NCBI RefSeq assembly: GCF_017433805.1
Contig: NZ_JAFRGN010000040.1
Location: forward strand, 96,039-160,038
Source: Butyrivibrio sp.
Lineage (GTDB): Bacteria > Bacillota > Clostridia > Lachnospirales > Lachnospiraceae
Reading direction: 5' to 3'
Length of the DNA: 64,000 bases
Below the pieces are notes generated by a model, which saw only the letters and a list, made by a program, of their open reading frames with translations, did not search any database and was not told where the DNA came from. Within the stretch, counting starts at the first letter, position 1. The number at the start of each line of letters is the position of its first letter. This document shows, in pieces, positions 48,384 through 64,000 of the stretch. Both the position numbers and the translations under genes were made by a program.

Positions 48384-49136
48384 TCACTTCTCAAGATGAT
48401 ACATAAGCCATGAAATAATCGTAAATCCCGCTGTCTCTGTACGCAAAATTCTCTTTCCAAGCGTAATTGGCATTATACCATTTTCCATGCAAAGGTCAAT
48501 CTCCTGCTCAGAAAAGCCACCTTCCGGTCCGATAAATATAGCAATGCTCTGTCCAGGCTCAATAGCCTCAATAAGTCGCTTAGTCTCTTCTATTCCCTTG
48601 GCATTCTCGTACGGAATGAGCTTAACATCCATACTCTTTGCCATCTCTACTGCCTGCTTCATAGTCATAGGCATAGTAACTTCCGGAATAATAGCCCTCT
48701 TGCTCTGCTTGGCTGCAGCCTCGGAAATAGCCTGCCATCTCTTTATCTTGTTCTCTGCCTTCTTTTCATCAAGCTTAACAACGCATCTCTTGGTAGACAT
48801 TGGAATAACCTGAAATGCACCGAGTTCAACCGCCTTCTGAATGATAAGCTCCATCTTATCCACCTTGGGAAGCCCCTGGAAAAGATATATCTTGGAAGGA
48901 AGCTCGTTACCAACCTTCTCGATGAAGCATAGCTTACCTATAACGCTGGAATCAGTAATCTCTTCGATCTCGTAAAAGATCTCCTTACCCTCGTCATCGT
49001 CTCTTATGCTGACAGAAAACTGTTCTCCCTTCTGCATTCGAAGAACATTAGCTATATGATTGTAATCATTTCCTGTAATCTCAACATTTTTAAAGTCAGG
49101 TGTGAGCTGACTGTTCTCAACAAAAAAGTGATACAT
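48384..49136 (-). CDS. rsmE: 16S rRNA (uracil-1498-N3)-methyltransferase
   Basis: This 250-residue SPOUT enzyme methylates U1498 of 16S rRNA. FIGPEGGFSEQEIDL and LGKRILRTETA are the SAM/knot motifs. The N-terminal PUA-like part begins YHFFVENSQ. The start overlaps the prmA stop by one base (TGATG), so translation is coupled. The order dnaJ-prmA-rsmE is conserved in Firmicutes. Confidence 0.96.
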   Translation of the reverse strand: MYHFFVENSQLTPDFKNVEITGNDYNHIANVLRMQKGEQFSVSIRDDDEGKEIFYEIEEITDSSVIGKLCFIEKVGNELPSKIYLFQGLPKVDKMELIIQKAVELGAFQVIPMSTKRCVVKLDEKKAENKIKRWQAISEAAAKQSKRAIIPEVTMPMTMKQAVEMAKSMDVKLIPYENAKGIEETKRLIEAIEPGQSIAIFIGPEGGFSEQEIDLCMENGIMPITLGKRILRTETAGFTIISWLMYHLEK

Positions 49137-50173
49137 CAGTTTTTCCTCGAAGTGATTGAAACCCAGTCTCCCTGATGATGGATCTCAAGAATCTCAAGTC
49201 CAGCATCAAGATGCGCTTTTTTAACCTCTTCCTCTTTGGTGTTAATAATACCAGATGTTATGTAAATACCACCCTGTTTGAGCTGATTCAAAATAACTGG
49301 AGTAAGAGGAACAAGGACATTGGCAAGAATATTGGCAACTACAATATCATACTTGTCATAGCCAACTGTATCCTGAACCTTCTTGTCATCGATGATATTA
49401 CCGATCATCATGTCAAACTTATCAGCTGGAATTCCGTTGTTCTCCATGTTCTCTTTAACTGCAGGAACTGCGCACTTATCAAGGTCAGTACCCACAGCGT
49501 GCTTGGCACCAAACATAAGAGCAAGGATTGATAAAACACCGCTTCCTGTTCCTACATCGAGAAGCTCTGTCTCAGGAGTTACATACTTCTTGAGCATTCT
49601 GATGCAGAGCTGTGTTGTCTCATGCATACCTGTTCCAAAAGCTGTTCCTGGATCAATATGCAGAACCATTTCAGCCTTATCCTTGTCGTCCTGTGTTTCC
49701 TTCTCCCAGGAAGGAATAACAAGAATGTCGTCTATATAGAACTTGTGGAAATACTGCTTCCAGTTGTTGATCCAATCTATATCCTCTGTAACATCTACAG
49801 AAATAGTGCCATCTCCGATATCCGAGAAGCTCTTAAGTTCATCAAGCTTCTCTCTGATAGCAGCCTGCATCTGCTCTGGGGTTCTCTTTTCCTTGACGTA
49901 TTCACCGTCTTCATTTGGAACTTCAACAGTAAGGTTGTTCTCATCATCAATCTCAACAAAGAAATTAAGATAAGCCACACCACTCTCTATTCCGCTATCT
50001 TTTTCATCTGGCTCAAGCTCTGGAGCATCAATGAACATCTGCTCCTTGTCAGCAGCTGAAAGAGGAGCATTATCCTCAATCTGTGCTCCCTCTAAGCCTA
50101 TATCCTCTAAATAACTTATGATGATATCTTCAGATTCCTCATTAGTACGTACTCTAAATCTCATCCATTTCAT
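49136..50173 (-). CDS. prmA: Ribosomal protein L11 methyltransferase
   Basis: This SAM enzyme methylates L11. The 345-residue protein is about 30 residues longer than the Bacillus enzyme because of an acidic insertion near 45-90 (EPDEKDSGIE and neighbours). The C-terminal catalytic domain has LLDVGTGSGVLSILA, and DIVVANILANVLVPL carries the conserved N-I-L-A-N substrate motif. GAGGG lies about 9 bases before the ATG. A 102-base gap separates it from dnaJ. Confidence 0.95.
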   Translation of the reverse strand: MKWMRFRVRTNEESEDIIISYLEDIGLEGAQIEDNAPLSAADKEQMFIDAPELEPDEKDSGIESGVAYLNFFVEIDDENNLTVEVPNEDGEYVKEKRTPEQMQAAIREKLDELKSFSDIGDGTISVDVTEDIDWINNWKQYFHKFYIDDILVIPSWEKETQDDKDKAEMVLHIDPGTAFGTGMHETTQLCIRMLKKYVTPETELLDVGTGSGVLSILALMFGAKHAVGTDLDKCAVPAVKENMENNGIPADKFDMMIGNIIDDKKVQDTVGYDKYDIVVANILANVLVPLTPVILNQLKQGGIYITSGIINTKEEEVKKAHLDAGLEILEIHHQGDWVSITSRKN

Positions 50174-50275
50174 ATAATCAGCCCTCTATACTATAAACGC
50201 ACAAATACTTCCGTAGTTAAATATACACTACTTTAACTACGGAAGTATAACATATCTGTCAATTAATTATGAATT

Positions 50276-51451
50276 TTACTTGAAGAATCCCTTCTTCTTT
50301 TTGCCGCCGTTGTCTGGGCCCTTATCATCACTGCTACCCATAACTCTGTCAGCTGCGCCAAGGGAATCTCCTGTCTTCTCATCAAACTGCTTGAGAAGGT
50401 CTTTGGCTTCCTTGGAAATCTTCTCAGGAATCTGAACTACAAGAGTTACATAGTGATCTCCTCTTGTATCCTTGTCTCTGAGTGAAGGAACACCCTTACC
50501 ACGAAGTCTTACTCTTGTATCAGTCTGAGTTCCAGGCTTAACGTCATAAGCAACCTTACCATCTACTGTATCAATGATAACTGTGCCACCAAGTGTAGCA
50601 ATAGCAAATGACATAGGAACTACAGAATAGATATCGTAGCCTTCTCTTTGGAAGATAGGATGATCTGATACAACAACCTCAACCAGGAGGTCTCCTCTAG
50701 GTCCGCCATTGATTCCTGGCTCACCCTTTTCTCTGATTCTGACACTCTGGCCATTATCTATACCTGCTGGAATAGTAACCTTGATCTTCTTCCTGCTGGC
50801 AATATATCCTGTTCCGTGGCAATCTACGCACTTCTCCTTGATAACCTTACCAGTACCACCACACTCTGGACATGTTTGAACATTTCTGACTGTTCCAAAG
50901 AATGACTGCTGTGTATATACAATCTGTCCCTTACCACCGCACTTAGAACATGTCTGAGCAGTAGTTCCTGGCTTAGCACCTGTACCATGACATGTAGGGC
51001 ATGGATCCTTGATAGTAAGCTCAAGCTCTTTCTCACATCCAAATACAGCCTCGAGGAATGTAATTCTCACGCTGGCACGCAAATTAGCTCCCTTGGAAGG
51101 GCCTGTTCTTGCTCCGCCTCTGGATCTGCCACCGCCAAAGAAATCCCCAAAGATATCACCAAAAATATCTCCGAAATCAGCTCCATTGAAATCAAAGCCG
51201 CCAAAGCCGCCCTGACCACCATCGAAGGCAGCATGACCAAACTGATCATACTGACGTCTCTTCTCTGGATCACTCAGTACAGCGTATGCCTCTGATGCTT
51301 CCTTGAATTTCTCGGCCGCTTCCGCATCTCCAGGATTCATATCTGGATGATACTTCTTGGCAAGCACTCTGTATGCCTTTTTAATTTCGTCCTCACTGGC
51401 ACCCTTGCTGACGCCAAGGACTTCATAATAATCACGCTTCTGTTCTGCCAT
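50276..51451 (-). CDS. dnaJ: Chaperone DnaJ
   Basis: This 391-residue Hsp40 co-chaperone of DnaK has a J domain at 1-70 with HPD ([11 protein letters not shown]), a Gly/Phe-rich linker, four zinc-finger repeats ([32 protein letters not shown]) and the C-terminal substrate-binding part, ending in a lysine-rich tail. It is the last chaperone gene of the hrcA-grpE-dnaK-dnaJ operon. A hairpin lies in the 111-base gap after dnaK. Confidence 0.98.
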
Positions 51452-51481
51452 ATTACTCCTGAATATATCTAAATAATAAGC

Positions 51482-51527
51482 ATACTGCTACTACCCACCA
51501 CACCTTCGCAGTGGATAGTAACAGTAT
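51482..51527 (-). other. Long imperfect hairpin between dnaK and dnaJ
   Basis: ATACTG-TACTA-CCAC pairs with GTGG-TAGTA-CAGTAT, with two single mismatches and a 12-base loop. It has no U-tract. It could reduce dnaJ transcription or be an mRNA-processing/stability element between the two chaperone genes. Confidence 0.55.
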
Positions 51528-51562
51528 AATACCATCATCAGTAAAATGAAATGTGAAAAGAG

Positions 51563-53464
<1,902 letters not shown>

Positions 53465-53503
53465 TTATCAATTATTCATGTCGCTGGATCTCTCCAGTAT
53501 TAT

Positions 53504-54202
53504 TTATGCGGTAACACCTACCATGCTATGTCTGAGCACGGTGTCGTGGAACATATATCCCTTTTGAAGTTCCTGTGCAACTACTCCTGATTCATACTCC
53601 TGACTCTCAACCTGCATTACTGCATTGTGAAGATTAGGATCGAATTCCTTACCCACAGCTTCAATAGGGGTTACTCCAAGATCCTCAAGCTGTTTAACAA
53701 GCTGCTTGTATATCTTGTTCATACCATCTGCAAAAGCTCCATCTTTTTCTTCTTCTGGAACTGCTGCGAGACCTCTCTCAAAATTATCTATTACAGGAAG
53801 GAGCTTCTCAAGGACATTACTCTGGCCCTGCTCAAACATCTGAGCCTTCTCTTTTTCCGTTCTCTTCCTGAAGTTATCGAACTCAGCCATCTGACGAAGA
53901 ACTTTGTCATTGAGTTCGTCAACTTTTTCCTTAAGTGGATCTTTCTTATCCTTCTTGGCAAAAGGATTCTTTTTCTTGTGTTCCTTATCTTCCTTGCCTT
54001 CAGCGCTTTCATCAGAAGCTTTTTCTGTATTTTCCTCTGTATCAGCTTCCTCAGCCCTAGACTCTTCTGCTTCGGCCTTCTCAGCCTCTGCAGCCTCGTT
54101 CTCAGCTTTCTCTTTGGCTTCTTCCTCAAGTTCTTCCATGATATTCTCAAGGACCTCTTTGTCCTGCTCGCTGACTGGCTTCTTGTTCTCTGTGTTACTC
54201 AA
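53504..54202 (-). CDS. grpE: Nucleotide exchange factor GrpE
   Basis: This 232-residue DnaK nucleotide-exchange factor begins with an unusually long Glu/Lys/Ala-rich region (about 1-90) before the coiled coil EKVDELNDKVLRQMAEFDNFRKRTEKEK. The beta-domain end has VGKEFDPNLHNAVMQVE and DTVLRHSMVGV, both GrpE hallmarks. It lies between hrcA (48 bases) and dnaK. Confidence 0.96.
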   Translation of the reverse strand: MSNTENKKPVSEQDKEVLENIMEELEEEAKEKAENEAAEAEKAEAEESRAEEADTEENTEKASDESAEGKEDKEHKKKNPFAKKDKKDPLKEKVDELNDKVLRQMAEFDNFRKRTEKEKAQMFEQGQSNVLEKLLPVIDNFERGLAAVPEEEKDGAFADGMNKIYKQLVKQLEDLGVTPIEAVGKEFDPNLHNAVMQVESQEYESGVVAQELQKGYMFHDTVLRHSMVGVTA

Positions 54203-54250
54203 ATCAACTGCCTCCTAAAAAACTTTCTATATCAATTTGCGCTCCATAAG

Positions 54251-55282
54251 CTAGTTCTTCTTGTACAAGTCATCAAGCGCATGTCTCATATTCTTAAGTG
54301 TCGAGATTACCTTGTCGTAATCCATTCTCTTAGGACCGATGATACCAACGGTTCCCTTCATACCATCTCCAAGCTCGTAGGTAGCTGTTACCACGCTACA
54401 ATCCTTCATAGCCTGAACTGGAGTCTCATTACCGATATAAACCTGGATGCCTGTCTCCTCTGTCTCAGCTGAAAGAGTTCCCTCTACAATACTGGACAGA
54501 TCCTTGGTATCCTCAAAGGTACTGATCAGTTCGCTTGCCTTGGTAGAATCTGTAAGCTCAGGATACTTGAAGATATTCATCGTGCCACTTGTGTAGATCT
54601 GAAGATCTTCATCAGCTGTTATGGACTCAGCAGCTGCATCAATGACATTACCAATGATCTCACTGTGTATTCCCGCTTCCTGCTTGACTGCAGCAATCAG
54701 TCCCAGGTTAATATCCTCAACTGCAAGACCATCAAGCCTTGTATTCATGAGAATGTTGAGCTTGAGCATTGTGGCATCATCCAGAACTTCCTCAACTGGA
54801 ATGATCTTGTTCTTGATTACGTTGCCTTCTATTACGATAGTAGCAAGAAGGTGCTCATCATCAACCTTGGATATCTGTATGAATTTAAGTTTGTTCTTCC
54901 TGATCTGAGGCGCTGAGATCATTGTGGCGTAATTAGTATCAATCGCCAGTGTCTTGGCTACCTGTTTGAGAAGATTCTCAAGCTTCGCTTCCTTATCAAG
55001 AAGCATCTCCTTCATGTTCTCAACTTCCTGTTCCTTATCCCTGAGCATCTCGTCTACATATACTCTGTAGCCCTGATCTGAAGGGATACGACCAGCTGAT
55101 GTATGAGGCTGAAGAATAAGCCCCATTTCCTCAAGGTCTGCCATCTCATTTCTGATAGTAGCTGAGCTAAGATTAAGATCTGTATACTTGGAAATTGTGC
55201 GGCTGCCTACTGGCTCGCCTGTCTCCAAATAGTTCTTAACTATAGCATGAAGAATTTTTCTTTTTCTCTCGTCTAATTCCAT
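54251..55282 (-). CDS. hrcA: Heat-inducible transcription repressor HrcA
   Basis: This 343-residue repressor binds the CIRCE operator upstream. An N-terminal winged helix (DERKRKILHAIVKNYLETGEPVGS) precedes the GAF-like and dimerisation region. SSATIRNEMADLEEMGLI is the recognition segment, and IGPKRMDYDKVISTL near the C-terminus is typical. The start is placed at MELDERKRK, with AGGAAGGG upstream; a Met 11 codons earlier lacks a ribosome site. It is first in its operon and autoregulated. Confidence 0.97.
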   Translation of the reverse strand: MELDERKRKILHAIVKNYLETGEPVGSRTISKYTDLNLSSATIRNEMADLEEMGLILQPHTSAGRIPSDQGYRVYVDEMLRDKEQEVENMKEMLLDKEAKLENLLKQVAKTLAIDTNYATMISAPQIRKNKLKFIQISKVDDEHLLATIVIEGNVIKNKIIPVEEVLDDATMLKLNILMNTRLDGLAVEDINLGLIAAVKQEAGIHSEIIGNVIDAAAESITADEDLQIYTSGTMNIFKYPELTDSTKASELISTFEDTKDLSSIVEGTLSAETEETGIQVYIGNETPVQAMKDCSVVTATYELGDGMKGTVGIIGPKRMDYDKVISTLKNMRHALDDLYKKN

Positions 55283-55339
55283 AAGCCCTTCCTCTGCATT
55301 CACCGGTAAATTCATTGGAATGGTATATTTTTTGGAGTG

Positions 55340-55509: not shown

Positions 55510-56319
55510 TTAGTTACCAATTACAGCTGCAAGTAAGCTCTGAACTTTGATAGATACAGGCTCAGATGCTTCTGAGTATACCTTCTCGTTCTTTTCATAC
55601 TGCTGGTAAGCAACAACTTTGTAGTAATAAGTTCTATTCTTATTTACCCAAACGTTTGTATAGCTGTTACCCTTAGTTGAACCAACTACTCCGTATTCTC
55701 CATCCTTGGATGCTGAACGATAAACTGTGTAACCGTCAGCAGCTGGATCCTCATCCCATTCTATTTCTACGCCAAGAACAGACTGTGAAAGTGTTACATT
55801 CTGAGGAGCCTTAAGCTCAGGTCTTCCAACTTCAACAACATCCTCAAGGAAAAGATCAGAAACAACATCCTTCTCGCCATCGCTAAGCTGGAATATTTCT
55901 GCTCTGAGAGCTGTCTCCTGCTTCTCAACACCTACATTAACCTTGAATGTAATAGTGATAAGATCGCCCTTTACGTATTTGCCCATATCGTGTACGAATG
56001 CGTAAGAAGCACCTGCACGCTCGCCTTCCTTGTAATCCTTATTGAAATCCTTTTCTTCGAAATTGACATTTCCCTTAGCCTTAACAAGTGTAAGTACTGC
56101 TGGATCATATGTAACTGCCAATCTTCCATCAGTTACTCTTGTCTTATCAAGCTTAACTTCATATGTAACAACAGGATCACTTTCCTTACCTGAAACAGTT
56201 GCTACTGTATGAACTGGTGCACTGTCAGCCGCATGTACAGCTGTTGCAGGCAGTCCAGTAAAAAGAATAAGTGAAGTCATTCCGAGAACGAATGCTCTTT
56301 TAATAGTCTTAATCATCAT
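55510..56319 (-). CDS. Secreted protein with cohesin-like and FN3 domains
   Basis: This 269-residue exported protein has a signal peptide at about 1-31 (ending AVHAAD). Residues about 38-165 look like a cohesin fold: YEVKLDKTRVTDGRLAVTYD, DPAVLTLVKAKGN, GDLITITFKVN and EIFQLSDGEKDV. An FN3 domain is at about 172-262 (GVEIEWDEDPAADGYTVYR, YYYKVVAYQ). There is no visible LPXTG or membrane anchor. Its start lies inside the end of the protease gene (11-base overlap, AGGAGG within the protease codons), so the two are translationally coupled. Binding the protease's dockerin-like module is an inference. Confidence 0.8.
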   Translation of the reverse strand: MMIKTIKRAFVLGMTSLILFTGLPATAVHAADSAPVHTVATVSGKESDPVVTYEVKLDKTRVTDGRLAVTYDPAVLTLVKAKGNVNFEEKDFNKDYKEGERAGASYAFVHDMGKYVKGDLITITFKVNVGVEKQETALRAEIFQLSDGEKDVVSDLFLEDVVEVGRPELKAPQNVTLSQSVLGVEIEWDEDPAADGYTVYRSASKDGEYGVVGSTKGNSYTNVWVNKNRTYYYKVVAYQQYEKNEKVYSEASEPVSIKVQSLLAAVIGN

Positions 56320-59300
56320 TCTCTCCTCCTTCTGTAGCCTCTTCTGAAGCTGCCTCTGCAGATGCCTCTGAATCCTCTACATTAGTTTCTGAAGAAGCCT
56401 CTACAGCTTCTTCTTTCTCTTCTTCATTTGTGATATCAAACAGTACTTCCTCTGTTGAATCCTCAACAGCCTCATCTACTGTCTCATCTGTGCTAGCCTC
56501 AACTGTTGAAGCATCCTCTGAACTCTCAACTGTTGCAGAATCCTCTGGATCCTCTTCATCATTTCTGCCACCACGCTTTGTAACTGTTACCTTTACTTCT
56601 GCTGTAAGGTGGTTGCCTTCTTCATCAGTATAAACTGTTGTAACCTTAACAACAGTCTCGCCTTCCTTAACACCAGTGATGACACCGCTCTGGTTTACTG
56701 TAGCAATCTTTGTATCCTCAGATGACCACTCAACTTCATCATAGCCTTCTTCAAGCCATCTAGGACCAACTGTCGCATTTACCTGAACTCTGCTACGCTC
56801 TCTTACAGTAACTTCTGACTGGTCAACAGAGATCTCTGATACATACTTGGTATCAGCATGTCCTGTGTTGTTGAAGCGGTATACTGAACCGTTAAGAGCA
56901 TAGTCGAATACTTCTACATAGAATACATCTGCTGGGGCTTCGATAGCTACAGGTACCTCAGCACCCTTTTCTGTCTGATTTACAGAATATTTGCCAAGGA
57001 TATTTCCATCCTTATCAAGTACAAGTACAGCAGCAGTATATCTGTTATCCTGAAGAACAATCTCAAACTTACCATCTTCTAACATGTAAGCGTCTGTAAT
57101 TTCTGGATCAGTGTTATCGATAGTAAGAGGTGTTGTAATGTAAAGTCCCTTACCTGTAAGTGTAGAAGCATCTTCTACATCATCATAGTAACTAGGAACT
57201 GCTTCGATAGTAACGTCAACTTCTACATCGTCTGCAAGAGGGTTACCCTCCGCATCAGTACCTGCCCAGTGAAGATCCTGCCACTGAATGTAGTTCTCCC
57301 ACTGACCCTGGTAAATGAATGCTGCATAGTTCTCATATTCTGTATGATCGAAATACTTCTCTCCAGTATTTCTATCAGTAATAGTCATGATTACTCTGCT
57401 AGCATTTCTGATAAGTGAGTAGTACATGCTACCAAGTGCTGTTCCGTTAACTGAACTAATTGCATTTCTGTCTGGAATATACTGGTCATCATCTGTGAAG
57501 AGGTTAGGGATGTAGTACATCTCGTTATCATCAGAGAAATCACCATATGGGTATATTGACAGGAAGTTAGTCTTAGCCATTCCTACGTAAGACTGTCCGC
57601 CGTAATTATCATTGTGCATTGCTTCCATGAAGTCGAAGTTATCATACATTGATGAATCCATCCAGCTTCCATAGAAAGCAAGGAAAGGAACTGAAAGGTC
57701 AACATTACCATTTACATAAACGAAACCGTCTACATAAATACCATTTTCAAATCCTGCAAGATATGCTCTGTCAGAATCTGAAAGTGTGATCTGAACATCG
57801 ATCTTTGTGCTGTCAGTAACCTTAACAAGCTTAAGATCAAGGTTTGCTACATTAGCCTTACCATGAAGCTGTCTTCCAAGGAGATATACGTCCTTAGTAT
57901 TAAGAACACCATCCTTATTAAGGTCGAAGTATTCCTGGTTCTGCTCAATTACAGGAACATCAACTGAACCATTGATTGCCTGAAGGAAGATCTTTCTATC
58001 TGCTCCATCTACGGCACCATCCTCATTAACATCGTATACAAGACCTGCATCGCTTGATGTAAATGATACTGATGGCTTAAGTTCATGTGATCTACCCATG
58101 AAGAATGTTACGCCTGATGAATTATAGAGTTCCTCTGTCAATACAGAAGAGTCAAGTACATAGTACTGAGGAACATCTGTCAGGTTATAAACATCAAATG
58201 AGAAGCTATAGTTACCAGTCTTCTCAGGATCATCTCCAAGAACAGCCTTAACCTTACCGTCGTTGCCAGCCTTGTCGCCAACAAGAATATATGAAGGAGA
58301 AGTTACTGCATTGTAAACATTTGCAAGACCTGCACCCTGCGATCTAGGTGAGAACTCAGGAGCGCTTGCATCGTTACCCTCGTGAAGAGGAATAGCTGTT
58401 GCCATTAAGAGAGACTGAGCAAGTGTACGAACTGAAAGACCAGTCTTGTCAGCAAGACCATTCTCACGGATATACTGCTCTACAAGTGCACTCTGACCTG
58501 AAATAGAAGGAGCAGCCATAGATGTTCCACTCATAAGGCCATATGTACCATTGTCTCTTGTTGAATAGATGTTTCCACCTGGTGCTGTGATTTCTGGCTT
58601 AAGATCAAGAGTTCCTGGTACACCATATGATGAGAAGTCACTCATTGTATAGCCATCAGCTGTATCAACCTTAACACCGATCTGAGATGTTACTGTAAGT
58701 GTTCCAGCAAAGGCTTTCTCAGCAATCTGCTCAGAAGAAGCTGCAACGCTCTCAGCATCTGCAAGTGTGATGGACACGCATGGGATAACAGCTGTGCTTC
58801 CCTGAAGTGTCATGCTGATTGTACCTGGCTGATTGTTGTAGATTACGCAAGCCTTAGCGCCAGCTGCTTCAGCGTTCATCTGCTTGTTACCAAATGTGAT
58901 CTCACCACGCTGAACAAATACGATCTTATCTGTAACATCGATACCCTCGTAGTCCTCAGGAAGACCCTTACCTGAAATAAGAACGAATGGATACTCAGTT
59001 CCATTGCCGTTTACATCAAGTGTCTCGAACTTAGGAGCGTATGTATCGCTACCATCTGAATAGAAGATCTTCTTGCCATCAGCTGTTGCAAAGTAGTTAC
59101 CAACCATTCCGTTATTAACAGCACTAGCAACTGTAAGAGCATTTGTGTAAGATCCAGGTGATCCTACTGTATCCATGTTAACATCCTTGCTAAGGTTAAC
59201 TCCAAATGATGAGTCATCAGCCCAACGTCCTGAGTTACCAGCTGAGATGGATACTACTGTGCTTGTTCCCTCGAGCTTCTTGAAGATATCATTGATATAA

Positions 59301-60586
59301 TCCTCAGAATCTGAAGAATAACCAGCAGCACTTGAACCAAGTGAAAGGTTAACTACATCAGCCTTAAGAAGGAGAGCATCCTCGATAGCTGCCATGTAGT
59401 CATCACTGTATGCGCCACCATTTGAGCCAAATACCTTCATGGTAATAAGCTGTGCATCAGGAGCAATACCTACAACGCCAACCTGCTGTCTTCCGTAGCC
59501 ACCTTCGTCGCTTCCGTCAGGAACATAGTAGTTAGCTGTTGAGATACCAGATACGTGTGTACCATGGTCACCCTGGTCATCGTTATCATGTGTTACATCA
59601 AGGTTCTTATCTACATAGTTAAATGCAAATGGAATCTTTTCATTAAGATAAAGATCTTCAGCAGAAACGCCTGCGCTTCTCTGTGAAACGTTAAGATTAG
59701 GAAGAACATTTGCGATCTCTTCAGCTGTAAGAAGTGAATAATCAGCAACTGTCTTACCTGCAGCTTCTGCTGTCTCACTTAAGTGAGCATCAAAAGCACC
59801 AGCATCGAAAGATGGATGATCTGCATCAATACCTGTATCGATGATAGCAATTCTTGTGCCTGCTCCTGTATAACCAGTAGCCCAAGCAGAGTAGCTTCCT
59901 ACCATATCACCAGAAGTGATAGTCATAGGCTCTACTGTCTCCTGTGGGTCATACTTCTGAGCAACGTAAACAGCTGCTACACCGTCAACATTTACGATAT
60001 TTTCAATATCCTTGTAAGCAACATCTGCTGATACAGCGTTTGTAATGATAGACAGGTTGTAGTTGACATCAAGCTCTTCTCCATCAAGAGCTTCCTCTGA
60101 AATCTTCTCAATTGTCTCTTCCTGCTCAGCAATGATACTCTCAGAAAGATTCATAGCCTCACTGTTATCAGCAAGGTTCTCTGTGTCATATCCCTTATCA
60201 AGGACAGCATCGCCTTCCATAACGATGATGACACGAGTCTGTTCCTCTGGATCCTTCTCCTCTACAGGCAGCTCTGTTACTTCCCCATCAAGAGCTGTTG
60301 AAAGATCTTCAAGTCCTTCTTCCTTAGGATCAACCTTCTCAAATAAAGGCGCATCCTTTGACTCAGCTTCTTCTACAGACGCATCTTCTGTAGCTTCATC
60401 TGTAGCGGCTTCTGCTTCTTCAGAAGCTTCCTGCTCGTCTACTTCGAAAACCACCTCTTCTTCGCTAGAAGAAAGAGAAGCTGCATCGTCCCCAGAAGTA
60501 GCTGCAGCAGTGATAACATTAGTAAATGCAAAAGATGCACTTAAGATCACTGCGAGCACCCTAGCGGGTCCAACTTTTCTTTTCAT
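56309..60586 (-). CDS. Large secreted subtilisin-like protease (S8) with dockerin-like and Big_2 modules
   Basis: This 1,425-residue secreted protein has a signal peptide (about 1-30), an acidic low-complexity part and an I9-like propeptide (about 115-215). The S8 triad is D250 (IIDTGID), H341 (DHGTHVSG) and S689 (SGTSMAAP). A PA insert lies near 515-640. A C5a-peptidase-like region follows. Residues about 846-906 carry two Ca-binding repeats, DVNEDGAVDGADRKIFLQAI and DLNKDGVLNTKDVYLLGRQL, as in a type I dockerin. A Big_2 domain is at about 1247-1332, then a Glu/Ser-rich acidic tail, without LPXTG. The start is the ATG with GGAGGAAA upstream; a GTG five codons earlier overlaps that site. Confidence 0.92.
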   Translation of the reverse strand: MKRKVGPARVLAVILSASFAFTNVITAAATSGDDAASLSSSEEEVVFEVDEQEASEEAEAATDEATEDASVEEAESKDAPLFEKVDPKEEGLEDLSTALDGEVTELPVEEKDPEEQTRVIIVMEGDAVLDKGYDTENLADNSEAMNLSESIIAEQEETIEKISEEALDGEELDVNYNLSIITNAVSADVAYKDIENIVNVDGVAAVYVAQKYDPQETVEPMTITSGDMVGSYSAWATGYTGAGTRIAIIDTGIDADHPSFDAGAFDAHLSETAEAAGKTVADYSLLTAEEIANVLPNLNVSQRSAGVSAEDLYLNEKIPFAFNYVDKNLDVTHDNDDQGDHGTHVSGISTANYYVPDGSDEGGYGRQQVGVVGIAPDAQLITMKVFGSNGGAYSDDYMAAIEDALLLKADVVNLSLGSSAAGYSSDSEDYINDIFKKLEGTSTVVSISAGNSGRWADDSSFGVNLSKDVNMDTVGSPGSYTNALTVASAVNNGMVGNYFATADGKKIFYSDGSDTYAPKFETLDVNGNGTEYPFVLISGKGLPEDYEGIDVTDKIVFVQRGEITFGNKQMNAEAAGAKACVIYNNQPGTISMTLQGSTAVIPCVSITLADAESVAASSEQIAEKAFAGTLTVTSQIGVKVDTADGYTMSDFSSYGVPGTLDLKPEITAPGGNIYSTRDNGTYGLMSGTSMAAPSISGQSALVEQYIRENGLADKTGLSVRTLAQSLLMATAIPLHEGNDASAPEFSPRSQGAGLANVYNAVTSPSYILVGDKAGNDGKVKAVLGDDPEKTGNYSFSFDVYNLTDVPQYYVLDSSVLTEELYNSSGVTFFMGRSHELKPSVSFTSSDAGLVYDVNEDGAVDGADRKIFLQAINGSVDVPVIEQNQEYFDLNKDGVLNTKDVYLLGRQLHGKANVANLDLKLVKVTDSTKIDVQITLSDSDRAYLAGFENGIYVDGFVYVNGNVDLSVPFLAFYGSWMDSSMYDNFDFMEAMHNDNYGGQSYVGMAKTNFLSIYPYGDFSDDNEMYYIPNLFTDDDQYIPDRNAISSVNGTALGSMYYSLIRNASRVIMTITDRNTGEKYFDHTEYENYAAFIYQGQWENYIQWQDLHWAGTDAEGNPLADDVEVDVTIEAVPSYYDDVEDASTLTGKGLYITTPLTIDNTDPEITDAYMLEDGKFEIVLQDNRYTAAVLVLDKDGNILGKYSVNQTEKGAEVPVAIEAPADVFYVEVFDYALNGSVYRFNNTGHADTKYVSEISVDQSEVTVRERSRVQVNATVGPRWLEEGYDEVEWSSEDTKIATVNQSGVITGVKEGETVVKVTTVYTDEEGNHLTAEVKVTVTKRGGRNDEEDPEDSATVESSEDASTVEASTDETVDEAVEDSTEEVLFDITNEEEKEEAVEASSETNVEDSEASAEAASEEATEGGENDD

Positions 60587-60923: not shown

Positions 60924-61445
60924 TTATAAACCGTAGTTACCAAGTTCCTTGTCGTTAACTACAAAGTAAACTGTGTTCTCTTCAGGCTTAACATAAAGGT
61001 CAAGCTTCTTGATGTCTGCAATGTTCTTGCCCATATCGAACTGATATACATTCTCAGCATTCTCTCTAAGAGTATCGAATGTAACATTCTTGTCAGCATA
61101 CTGAAGTACGATGTTAGTCTTAACAGCTGCTGTTGCTGCCTTAGCAGGTGCCTTCTTAGCTGCAGGCTTCTTAGCTGCTGTAGCTGTCTTCTTGGCAGGT
61201 GCCTTCTTAGCTGGTGCTGCTGTCTTCTTATCTTCAGCCTTCTTAACTGCAGGTTTCTTAGCAGTCTTAGCTGGTGCCTTTTTAACTGCAGGCTTCTTAG
61301 CTGGTGCTACTGCCTTCTTAACCTCAGCCTTAGCTTCTGTCTTAACTTCAGCCTTAACCTCAGCCTTCTTAGCCTCTGTAACTACTGGTGTCTTAATTGC
61401 TGCAACAGGTTTAACCGCTGCTACTGCTTTCTTGATCTCAGCCAT
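60924..61445 (-). CDS. DUF6465 family, histone-H1-like Ala/Lys-rich protein
   Basis: This 173-residue protein has an N-terminal 110 residues made of Ala/Lys/Pro/Val repeats (AKKAPAKK, VKKAPAK, AAKKPAAKK), like the C-tail of histone H1 or bacterial HU extensions. The C-terminal 60 residues are a compact domain (VLQYADKNVTFDTL, DLYVKPEENTVYFVVND) that I match to DUF6465. Nucleic-acid or envelope binding through the basic tail is plausible; function is not established. GAGGAGGAG lies before the ATG, and a good promoter lies upstream. It is monocistronic. Confidence 0.85.
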   Translation of the reverse strand: MAEIKKAVAAVKPVAAIKTPVVTEAKKAEVKAEVKTEAKAEVKKAVAPAKKPAVKKAPAKTAKKPAVKKAEDKKTAAPAKKAPAKKTATAAKKPAAKKAPAKAATAAVKTNIVLQYADKNVTFDTLRENAENVYQFDMGKNIADIKKLDLYVKPEENTVYFVVNDKELGNYGL

Positions 61446-63178: not shown

Positions 63179-64000
63179 TCACTCTTCGAAATCATCAAAC
63201 TCTTTCTTTTTATTAAGATGATCTTTGTACATCTTTTCGCCAGTTGCTCCAAGGACAGCTATGATAAGAAGCCACCACCAGCTCTTCTTCTGTGGAATAG
63301 TATCAGACTCTGCTGACACAGCAAGTGCTGTATTTTCATCTTCTATAGTAACAAGCTGTTCTTCATCTGATACAACCTGCGTTGTTTCTTTTACAGAAAC
63401 ATCTTGTGCCTCAGATGCAAGTGGAGCGCCCTCTTCTTCGATAAATACAGCTTCCTCAGTATTTCCTGCAACTCCTGCACCATCGGATGTATATCCTGTC
63501 TGTTCCACTGTATAAGAAGCGCCGGTATCTCCAGCATCTGCCAGGGTCATATTCTCAATAGCCACAGCGTCTGCTGCATTTGTTCCGCGAGCATTCTGTA
63601 TAGCGGTAGCTGCTGTTACTGCGCCCGTTGCTGCGCTAGCTATCTCACTTGCTGCTGTTGTTCCACCGCCTTGAGCATCCCTCTGGCCTCCACCAGTTTC
63701 ACCCTGCTCTATAGCATCTTCTATGATACTCATCGCTACCGGCGTAAGTCTTCCTATTGTATTCTTAAGGTCATTAGCAGCCGCTGTCAGTTTACCTTCA
63801 AGTTCATCAGCCTTGGTCTGGGCTTCTTTTACCTTACCATCAGCATCCTTCTTGAGGTCATTCAGCTCTTTTAACAGATTAGAAACAGTAAGGCCATTTA
63901 ATCTCACAGCCTCAGCTTCATCCACCTTAAGTCCCAGATAGCCTGCGATATCTGTAACTCCAAGTACATCTACGGCCTTGAGCGACTTTCTGGTATTCTG
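63179..64000 (-). CDS. C-terminal part of a membrane-anchored protein (5' end outside the window)
   Basis: The open frame continues to the window edge, giving at least 273 residues. The edge residues read QNTRKSLKAVDVLGVTDIAG, before YLGLKVDEAEAVRLNG. A coiled-coil-like part (about 30-90 of the visible part, LLKELNDLKKDADGKVKEAQ) precedes a Gly/Ala/Thr-rich linker and an acidic region. The end has one transmembrane helix (SWWWLLIIAVLGATGEKMY) and a short basic tail, a C-terminal anchor without LPXTG. An in-frame GTG at 63925 has no ribosome site, so it is not the start. Its family is not recognised. Confidence 0.8.
   Translation of the reverse strand, partial: QNTRKSLKAVDVLGVTDIAGYLGLKVDEAEAVRLNGLTVSNLLKELNDLKKDADGKVKEAQTKADELEGKLTAAANDLKNTIGRLTPVAMSIIEDAIEQGETGGGQRDAQGGGTTAASEIASAATGAVTAATAIQNARGTNAADAVAIENMTLADAGDTGASYTVEQTGYTSDGAGVAGNTEEAVFIEEEGAPLASEAQDVSVKETTQVVSDEEQLVTIEDENTALAVSAESDTIPQKKSWWWLLIIAVLGATGEKMYKDHLNKKKEFDDFEE

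Follow-up and report, generated by a model that had tools for sequence, protein, structure and literature searches.

Cohesin and dockerin modules are mostly read as parts of cellulosomes. Pairs of these modules outside cellulosomes are already a known kind, and a protease with a cohesin of its own, as described here, is a variant of that kind. In Clostridium perfringens, GH84C is a glycosidase with a cohesin that binds the dockerins of other secreted enzymes; its cohesin-FN3 module (2w1n) is non-cellulosomal and has the order, cohesin then FN3, of the partner protein described below. Unlike GH84C, the present cohesin is a separate small protein co-encoded with a single dockerin-bearing protease. 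Among cell-envelope subtilases of the C5a peptidase, SpyCEP and lactocepin type, the streptococcal ones are held by a sortase anchor and are not known to carry a dockerin; the present protease differs from them in carrying a dockerin and in having no LPxTG motif in its last 150 residues.

Peptidase, cohesin and dockerin, the same parts as in the fused relatives described below, are joined in one chain in ScaO/ScaP-type scaffoldins of Acetivibrio and Clostridium alkalicellulosi, according to the accessible parts of the reports (PMC3413522, PMC6780208, PMC11557425). In these parts, a subtilisin-like S8 peptidase is given for scaffoldin-type proteins of A. cellulolyticus (in a legend) and A. mesophilus. 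Such scaffoldins belong to large cellulosome systems, with 44 cohesins and 142 dockerin proteins in C. alkalicellulosi according to the same excerpts, whereas the present genome has one match of each. The dockerin of ScaO2 and of the A. mesophilus protein lies behind the cohesin, and that of the present protease lies instead inside an Fn3-like domain. Dockerin subtilases with the architectures Subt-(Dockerin_1)2 and Sub_N-Subt-PA-Dockerin have also been described in the accessible part of PMC2605481. Like the present protease, they combine a subtilisin domain with a dockerin, in one case with a PA domain, but they are presented as single proteins; the accessible text names no cohesin partner or neighbour, and the word 'cohesin' is absent from it. 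In the single-cohesin surface system of Ruminococcus albus, the cohesin is considered a means of fixing dockerin enzymes on the cell and not of building a scaffold; a large number of dockerins share few cohesins there (PMC6118326, accessible part). No such gene pair appeared in the titles and abstract starts of the literature matches listed, which cover subscription literature thinly, and absence from print is not claimed.

The pair described here lies in a window of 64,000 nucleotides, the whole stretch of DNA of the gut bacterium Butyrivibrio sp. that was analysed. It is read, as probable on balance, as a dedicated one-to-one cohesin-dockerin pair in which the partner serves the protease as a detachable docking subunit, probably for the cell surface. 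The two parts of this statement differ in strength: that the partner cohesin binds the protease dockerin is considered highly likely, and that it retains the protease at the cell surface, argued by analogy, is an even call, so the joint statement is placed between them. The features of the locus are as follows.

56309..60586, minus strand: S8 subtilase with an inserted dockerin, 1425 aa (open reading frame, ribosome-binding site, Pfam)
60497..60586, minus strand: signal-peptide-like N-terminus of the protease, about aa 1-30 (sequence by eye)
58328..59866, minus strand: Peptidase_S8 catalytic domain, aa 241-753 (Pfam PF00082, E = 2.6e-42)
58748..58975, minus strand: PA domain within the catalytic domain, aa 538-613 (Pfam PF02225)
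57662..58297, minus strand: Fn3-like (fn3_5-type) host domain of the dockerin, about aa 764-975 (AlphaFold model, PDB matches)
57866..58036, minus strand: type I dockerin with two calcium loops, aa 851-907 (PF00404)
56639..56842, minus strand: Big_2 Ig-like domain, aa 1249-1316 (PF02368)
56312..56599, minus strand: acidic low-complexity C-terminal tail of the protease (translation)
56325..56329, minus strand: Shine-Dalgarno GGAGG of the partner gene, within the last protease codons (sequence)
55510..56319, minus strand: cohesin-FN3 partner, 268 or 269 aa (open reading frame, co-occurrence)
56230..56319, minus strand: signal-peptide-like N-terminus of the partner, about aa 1-30 (sequence by eye)
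55858..56205, minus strand: cohesin domain of the partner (PF00963, model compared with solved cohesins)
55537..55821, minus strand: fibronectin type III domain of the partner
55513..55542, minus strand: short amphipathic C-terminal tail of the partner (alignment, tail listing, short helix in the model)

The protease gene starts with the ATG at 60586, preceded by GGAGG, and ends with the TAA at 56311-56309; the catalytic motifs DTG, HGTH and GTSMAAP are seen in its translation. The order S8, PA and Fn3-like is that of C5a-peptidase-like S8 subtilases (Pfam, PDB structure matches), and the PDB neighbours of the AlphaFold model of the protease segment are C5a peptidase and SpyCEP. Judged by sequence and model, the protease is thus a C5a-peptidase/lactocepin-like S8 subtilase. 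It fell short of NF040553, the family of the LPXTG-anchored peptidases SGO_0316/SGO_0317, scoring 185 bits over aa 45-819 only against a cut-off of 1400. The protease has its own stretch between signal and catalytic domain, for which an Inhibitor_I9 match just below the cut-off was found in the orthologue L127.

Both tandem calcium loops of type I dockerin pattern, noticed in the earlier note from the sequence alone, are present in the protease, and PF00404 matches above its cut-off of 22.9 (30.7 bits, E = 3.6e-7 in the Pfam scan; 37.2 bits, E = 1.2e-8 in the genome-wide search). Only the borders given for the domain had to be moved, from aa 846-906 to aa 851-907. In all 28 distinct dockerins that our own HMM picked at E ≤ 1e-20, the calcium ligands of both loops are D or N at positions 1, 3 and 5 and D at position 12. 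Positions 10-11 of the second loop are nearly invariant as well (T in 28 of 28, K in 26 of 28). With a dockerin profile, all nine PDB matches at E ≤ 0.01 were dockerins of cellulosomal enzymes, and EF-hand_7 remained below its cut-off in the protease; a plain EF-hand in place of a dockerin was rejected on these two results. Single-sequence searches of PDB (53 sequences, E ≤ 1) placed a dockerin at the top, with designed trefoil proteins and troponin C weaker.

The internal rather than C-terminal position seen in the earlier note was also found, and according to the model it can be stated more closely: the dockerin is not merely internal but inserted into the Fn3-like beta-sandwich behind the catalytic domain. 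When the dockerin was deleted in silico, fn3_5 went from unlisted to 21.8 bits (cut-off 27.6). A shifted and longer control deletion gave 21.7 bits, and in both cases the fn3_5 match runs across the joined ends, so the test points to an insert in this region and leaves its borders unfixed.

The next gene had been expected to encode a cohesin-like domain plus FN3, and the expectation held, with PF00963 at or over its cut-off and a cohesin-FN3 fold, rather than another beta fold, predicted for the product. The proposed HMM checks thus placed the dockerin above and the cohesin at or above the Pfam cut-off. The cohesin match is marginal in the Pfam scan, where its 24.1 bits equal the cut-off of 24.1, and reached 26 bits (E = 2.3e-5) in the genome-wide search. 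No PDB cohesin was found by sequence at E ≤ 1 with a 25-sequence partner profile, and the partner cohesin is, by sequence, divergent. The FN3 domain was not listed by the Pfam scan; it resembles a solved Fn3 protein at E = 0.0049 with the single sequence and E = 1.8e-8 with a profile. Both folds are predicted with high confidence (model compared with solved cohesins), residues 1-26 being of low confidence. The top Foldseek match of the model is 2w1n, the solved cohesin-FN3 double module, with E = 3.9e-7, in a list where two of 50 rows are cohesins and tandem FN3 proteins score equally high.

The partner starts at the ATG at 56319 or at 56316, and its stop ends at 55510. The overlap of the two genes reported in the earlier note is therefore present, and its length, given there as 11 bases, is 11 or 8 depending on which ATG is used. 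Among 25 distinct protease/partner junctions, 21 overlap and 21 have a Shine-Dalgarno-like motif in the last protease codons; of the four without overlap, three were probably mis-started at a later ATG by the script and the fourth belongs to the distant locus L131.

Downstream of the pair, the minus strand of the window carries a hrcA-grpE-dnaK-dnaJ-prmA-like run at 49136-55315, named by eye. The hrcA-grpE-dnaK genes adjoin the pair downstream in several Butyrivibrio, and other neighbours are found in Pseudobutyrivibrio. Upstream, at 60924-61445 (minus strand), is a gene for a protein of 173 aa that includes a long stretch rich in lysine, alanine and proline, resembling the tail of histone H1; genes of this kind precede the pair in L070, L076 and L084. 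An open-ended coiled-coil-like protein with the C-terminal hydrophobic stretch SWWWLLIIAVLGATG is encoded at 63179-64000, also on the minus strand.

Across the whole genome (3.45 Mb, 98% complete), one cohesin match and one dockerin match were found, and these are the pair itself. Being the only matches in 3.45 Mb, they argue that the pairing is not due to chance. Neither a scaffoldin with several cohesins (PF00963, one match) nor several dockerin-bearing enzymes (PF00404, one match) were found genome-wide; the lack of a scaffoldin remarked on in the earlier note thus extends to the genome, and a cellulosome was ruled out by the single cohesin and single dockerin match.

Frequent occurrence of either gene alone, which had been named as a sign against the pairing, was not seen in 79 genomes of the genus (own included). 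Partner and protease were each found in 20 of the 79, and the 20 are identical (partner profile E ≤ 1e-40, protease profile E ≤ 1e-20, lists compared by eye); since adjacent genes co-occur regardless of function, this agreement is weaker than it appears. In a 61-genome sample of the genus (own included), 13 genomes were dockerin-positive with one match each, in every case this protease. All 10 cohesin matches were this partner, and the cohesin exceeded the PF00963 cut-off in six of the 61 genomes. Loss of the dockerin in G163 and G207, which gave no Pfam match, was considered and rejected, as the domain was present by eye and by our own dockerin HMM, seeded with relatives. The named genome collection gave 22 loci, of which 18 match most of the partner, L078 matches residues 1-170, and L081-L083 match the FN3 only. 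A dockerin protease lies directly upstream of the partner cohesin in all 19 named loci of Butyrivibrio and Pseudobutyrivibrio, including L071, whose protease is cut by a contig end; several of these contigs recur in the 79-genome set, and the two counts cannot be treated as independent. The pair is kept in several different gene neighbourhoods among the named loci.

The lack of an anchor on either protein, which the earlier note had pointed out, was borne out and also applies to hydrophobic C-terminal segments: none was found in the last 150 aa of the protease (best 19-residue mean hydropathy 0.53) or in the last 100 aa of the partner (0.83). The window partner ends in QSLLAAVIGN and differs from the KKFFGLFG-type tail seen in 23 of the 28 partner tails listed, a tail that may or may not touch the membrane. 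With no visible anchor on either Butyrivibrio protein, surface retention is argued by analogy. One genome with the pair, G211, is that of the rumen strain B. proteoclasticus B316, and its protease is letter-identical to the B316-named P0021 from residue 6. Cell-bound serine protease activity is known for B316 from the accessible part of the literature, which reports the strain without scaffoldin or cohesin components of cellulosome assembly. P0021 is probably Bpr_I2629, the known cell-bound serine protease.

A search with the protease segment gave 1027 homologues. Among the best 120 listed, our own HMMs detected a dockerin in all 120 and a cohesin in one, P0121; the dockerin HMM was seeded by 53 of the listed proteases and the cohesin HMM by the partner family, so the seeds score by construction. 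P0121 is a one-chain form: the protease can be aligned with its residues as far as 1181, and the partner with its C-terminus (29% over 153; two-protein comparison, E = 1e-8). The alignment with the partner extends over an apparent remnant of a signal peptide, and a hydrophobic segment follows the cohesin at the end of the chain. P0121 represents four sequences on one contig, and a frameshift artefact is possible.

A second search, from the fused protein P0018, gave 490 homologues. By our own HMMs, 107 of the 120 listed have a dockerin, 87 a cohesin and 80 both; 27 have a dockerin and no detected cohesin, seven the reverse and six neither. SLH domains are present in many of them (precomputed Pfam list). 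The proteins P0139-P0258 are S8-type proteases of 1406-3417 aa, often with SLH or leucine-rich repeats; an inserted dockerin and a near-C-terminal cohesin were detected in 80 of these 120 (own HMMs), and from their sequences they look self-docking. The Pfam cohesin model was not listed by hmmscan in five of five fused homologues, P0121 included, nor in P0018; the P0018 cohesin exceeded the cut-off in the genome search (27.7 bits), and the other fused calls rest on our own cohesin HMM.

Separate forms with an anchor-like end also occur. In L131, the gene after a protease 39% identical to the window protease encodes a cohesin protein of 320 aa (27.6 bits), at whose C-terminus a TM-like stretch was recognised by eye. 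As far as sequence comparison goes, the pair is thus not an isolated oddity, since related proteases have a cohesin within their own chain or in an adjacent protein that ends in an anchor-like segment.

The same design was seen by eye with a different enzyme at L130:869-6221, where a 1507-aa pectinase-like protein with a C-terminal dockerin precedes a cohesin protein of 265 aa that has a TM-like segment at its C-terminus. Scanned with our own HMMs, L130 and L134 showed a cohesin only and L132 neither domain. Among the large dockerin proteins L140-L145, the same HMMs found a dockerin without cohesin in L140 and neither in the other five.

At the family level, 150 genomes of Lachnospiraceae, one per genus, were searched; 59 had a cohesin match, 53 a dockerin match and, by our reading of the lists, 39 both. 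A dockerin lay within 5 kb of a cohesin in 26 genomes, in a common reading frame in seven. About 0.14 genomes would be expected with random placement of one dockerin and one cohesin per genome, and the true random expectation is higher, because dockerins number up to 27 in a few genomes. One layout, a dockerin frame of 533-887 aa adjoining a cohesin frame of 485-763 aa, is shared by 17 of the 26 (among the 39 genomes with both). Examples are L033, L034, L037, L051 and L058. Of three dockerin-side proteins scanned, one was glucosaminidase-like below the cut-off (E = 0.0016); both cohesin-side proteins scanned matched the cohesin model, one of them below the cut-off. The layout may represent a second class of one-enzyme/one-cohesin pairs, with cell-wall hydrolases as possible enzymes. 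From these neighbour counts, one-enzyme/one-cohesin neighbours seem to be a recurrent layout, of which the protease pair is one branch.

The protease and its partner are predicted to join one-to-one via a calcium-dependent cohesin-dockerin joint. Since the dockerin belongs to the Fn3-like domain adjoining the catalytic domain, the partner would attach at the side of the enzyme body and not on its tail. The gene overlap and embedded ribosome-binding site suggest that the two proteins are made together, and the relatives with an anchor-like segment after the cohesin suggest that the partner may hold the protease on the cell surface or close to it. The final attachment in Butyrivibrio is perhaps via the FN3 and the short C-terminal tail, and the product would be a two-part protease working outside the cell. 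The position of the dockerin, right after the catalytic domain, would also suit a partner that binds it for catalysis, with the FN3 as a substrate-binding exosite near the active site and the complex free in the medium. Such an exosite role has been proposed for the Fn domains of C5a peptidase, C5a peptidase and SpyCEP are the PDB neighbours, and neither protein shows an anchor. Nevertheless, a purely catalytic role is judged rather unlikely in view of the hydrophobic segment after the cohesin in relatives and of the cell-bound activity known for B316 from the accessible reports.

The translational overlap makes coupled amounts likely, and the Pfam scan of the partner gave no enzymatic domain; both would be in keeping with a partner that is secreted along with the protease as a maturation factor or inhibitor and keeps hold of it via the dockerin until release. 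Such a role appears improbable, however, as the cohesin is a permanent domain in the one-chain relatives and the protease has its own pre-catalytic stretch with the near-threshold Inhibitor_I9 match. It is very improbable that the two proteins do not bind each other at all, the dockerin being a calcium-stabilised structural insert, the cohesin binding otherwise and the operon being merely co-inherited. The setting of the dockerin within a domain and the divergence of the cohesin favour this, but no other dockerin or cohesin was found as an alternative mate in the genome or the 61-genome sample, and the pair is kept across several neighbourhoods and fused in relatives.

The docking-subunit reading of the Butyrivibrio pair may have a wider counterpart, which is put forward tentatively, at slightly less than even confidence: in a large protease clade of gut Clostridia, cohesin and dockerin would serve as the enzyme's own clasp and not as a scaffold, and the window pair would be the split form of a self-docking protease. 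The dockerin would sit in the protease body, and the cohesin would come either from the far end of the chain, so that the protein closes into a loop or links up with its neighbours, or as a clip-on subunit encoded by an overlapping gene.

In the window genome, one dockerin and one cohesin are the entire system, co-encoded and co-inherited and serving a protease. A dockerin in the enzyme body is an unusual geometry, which protein engineers employing the cohesin-dockerin joint could use. For B316, a cohesin partner would give the cell-bound state of the protease a testable mechanism, and the pair offers a testable account of how a proteolytic genus of the rumen may retain a subtilase on its cells although no anchor is visible.
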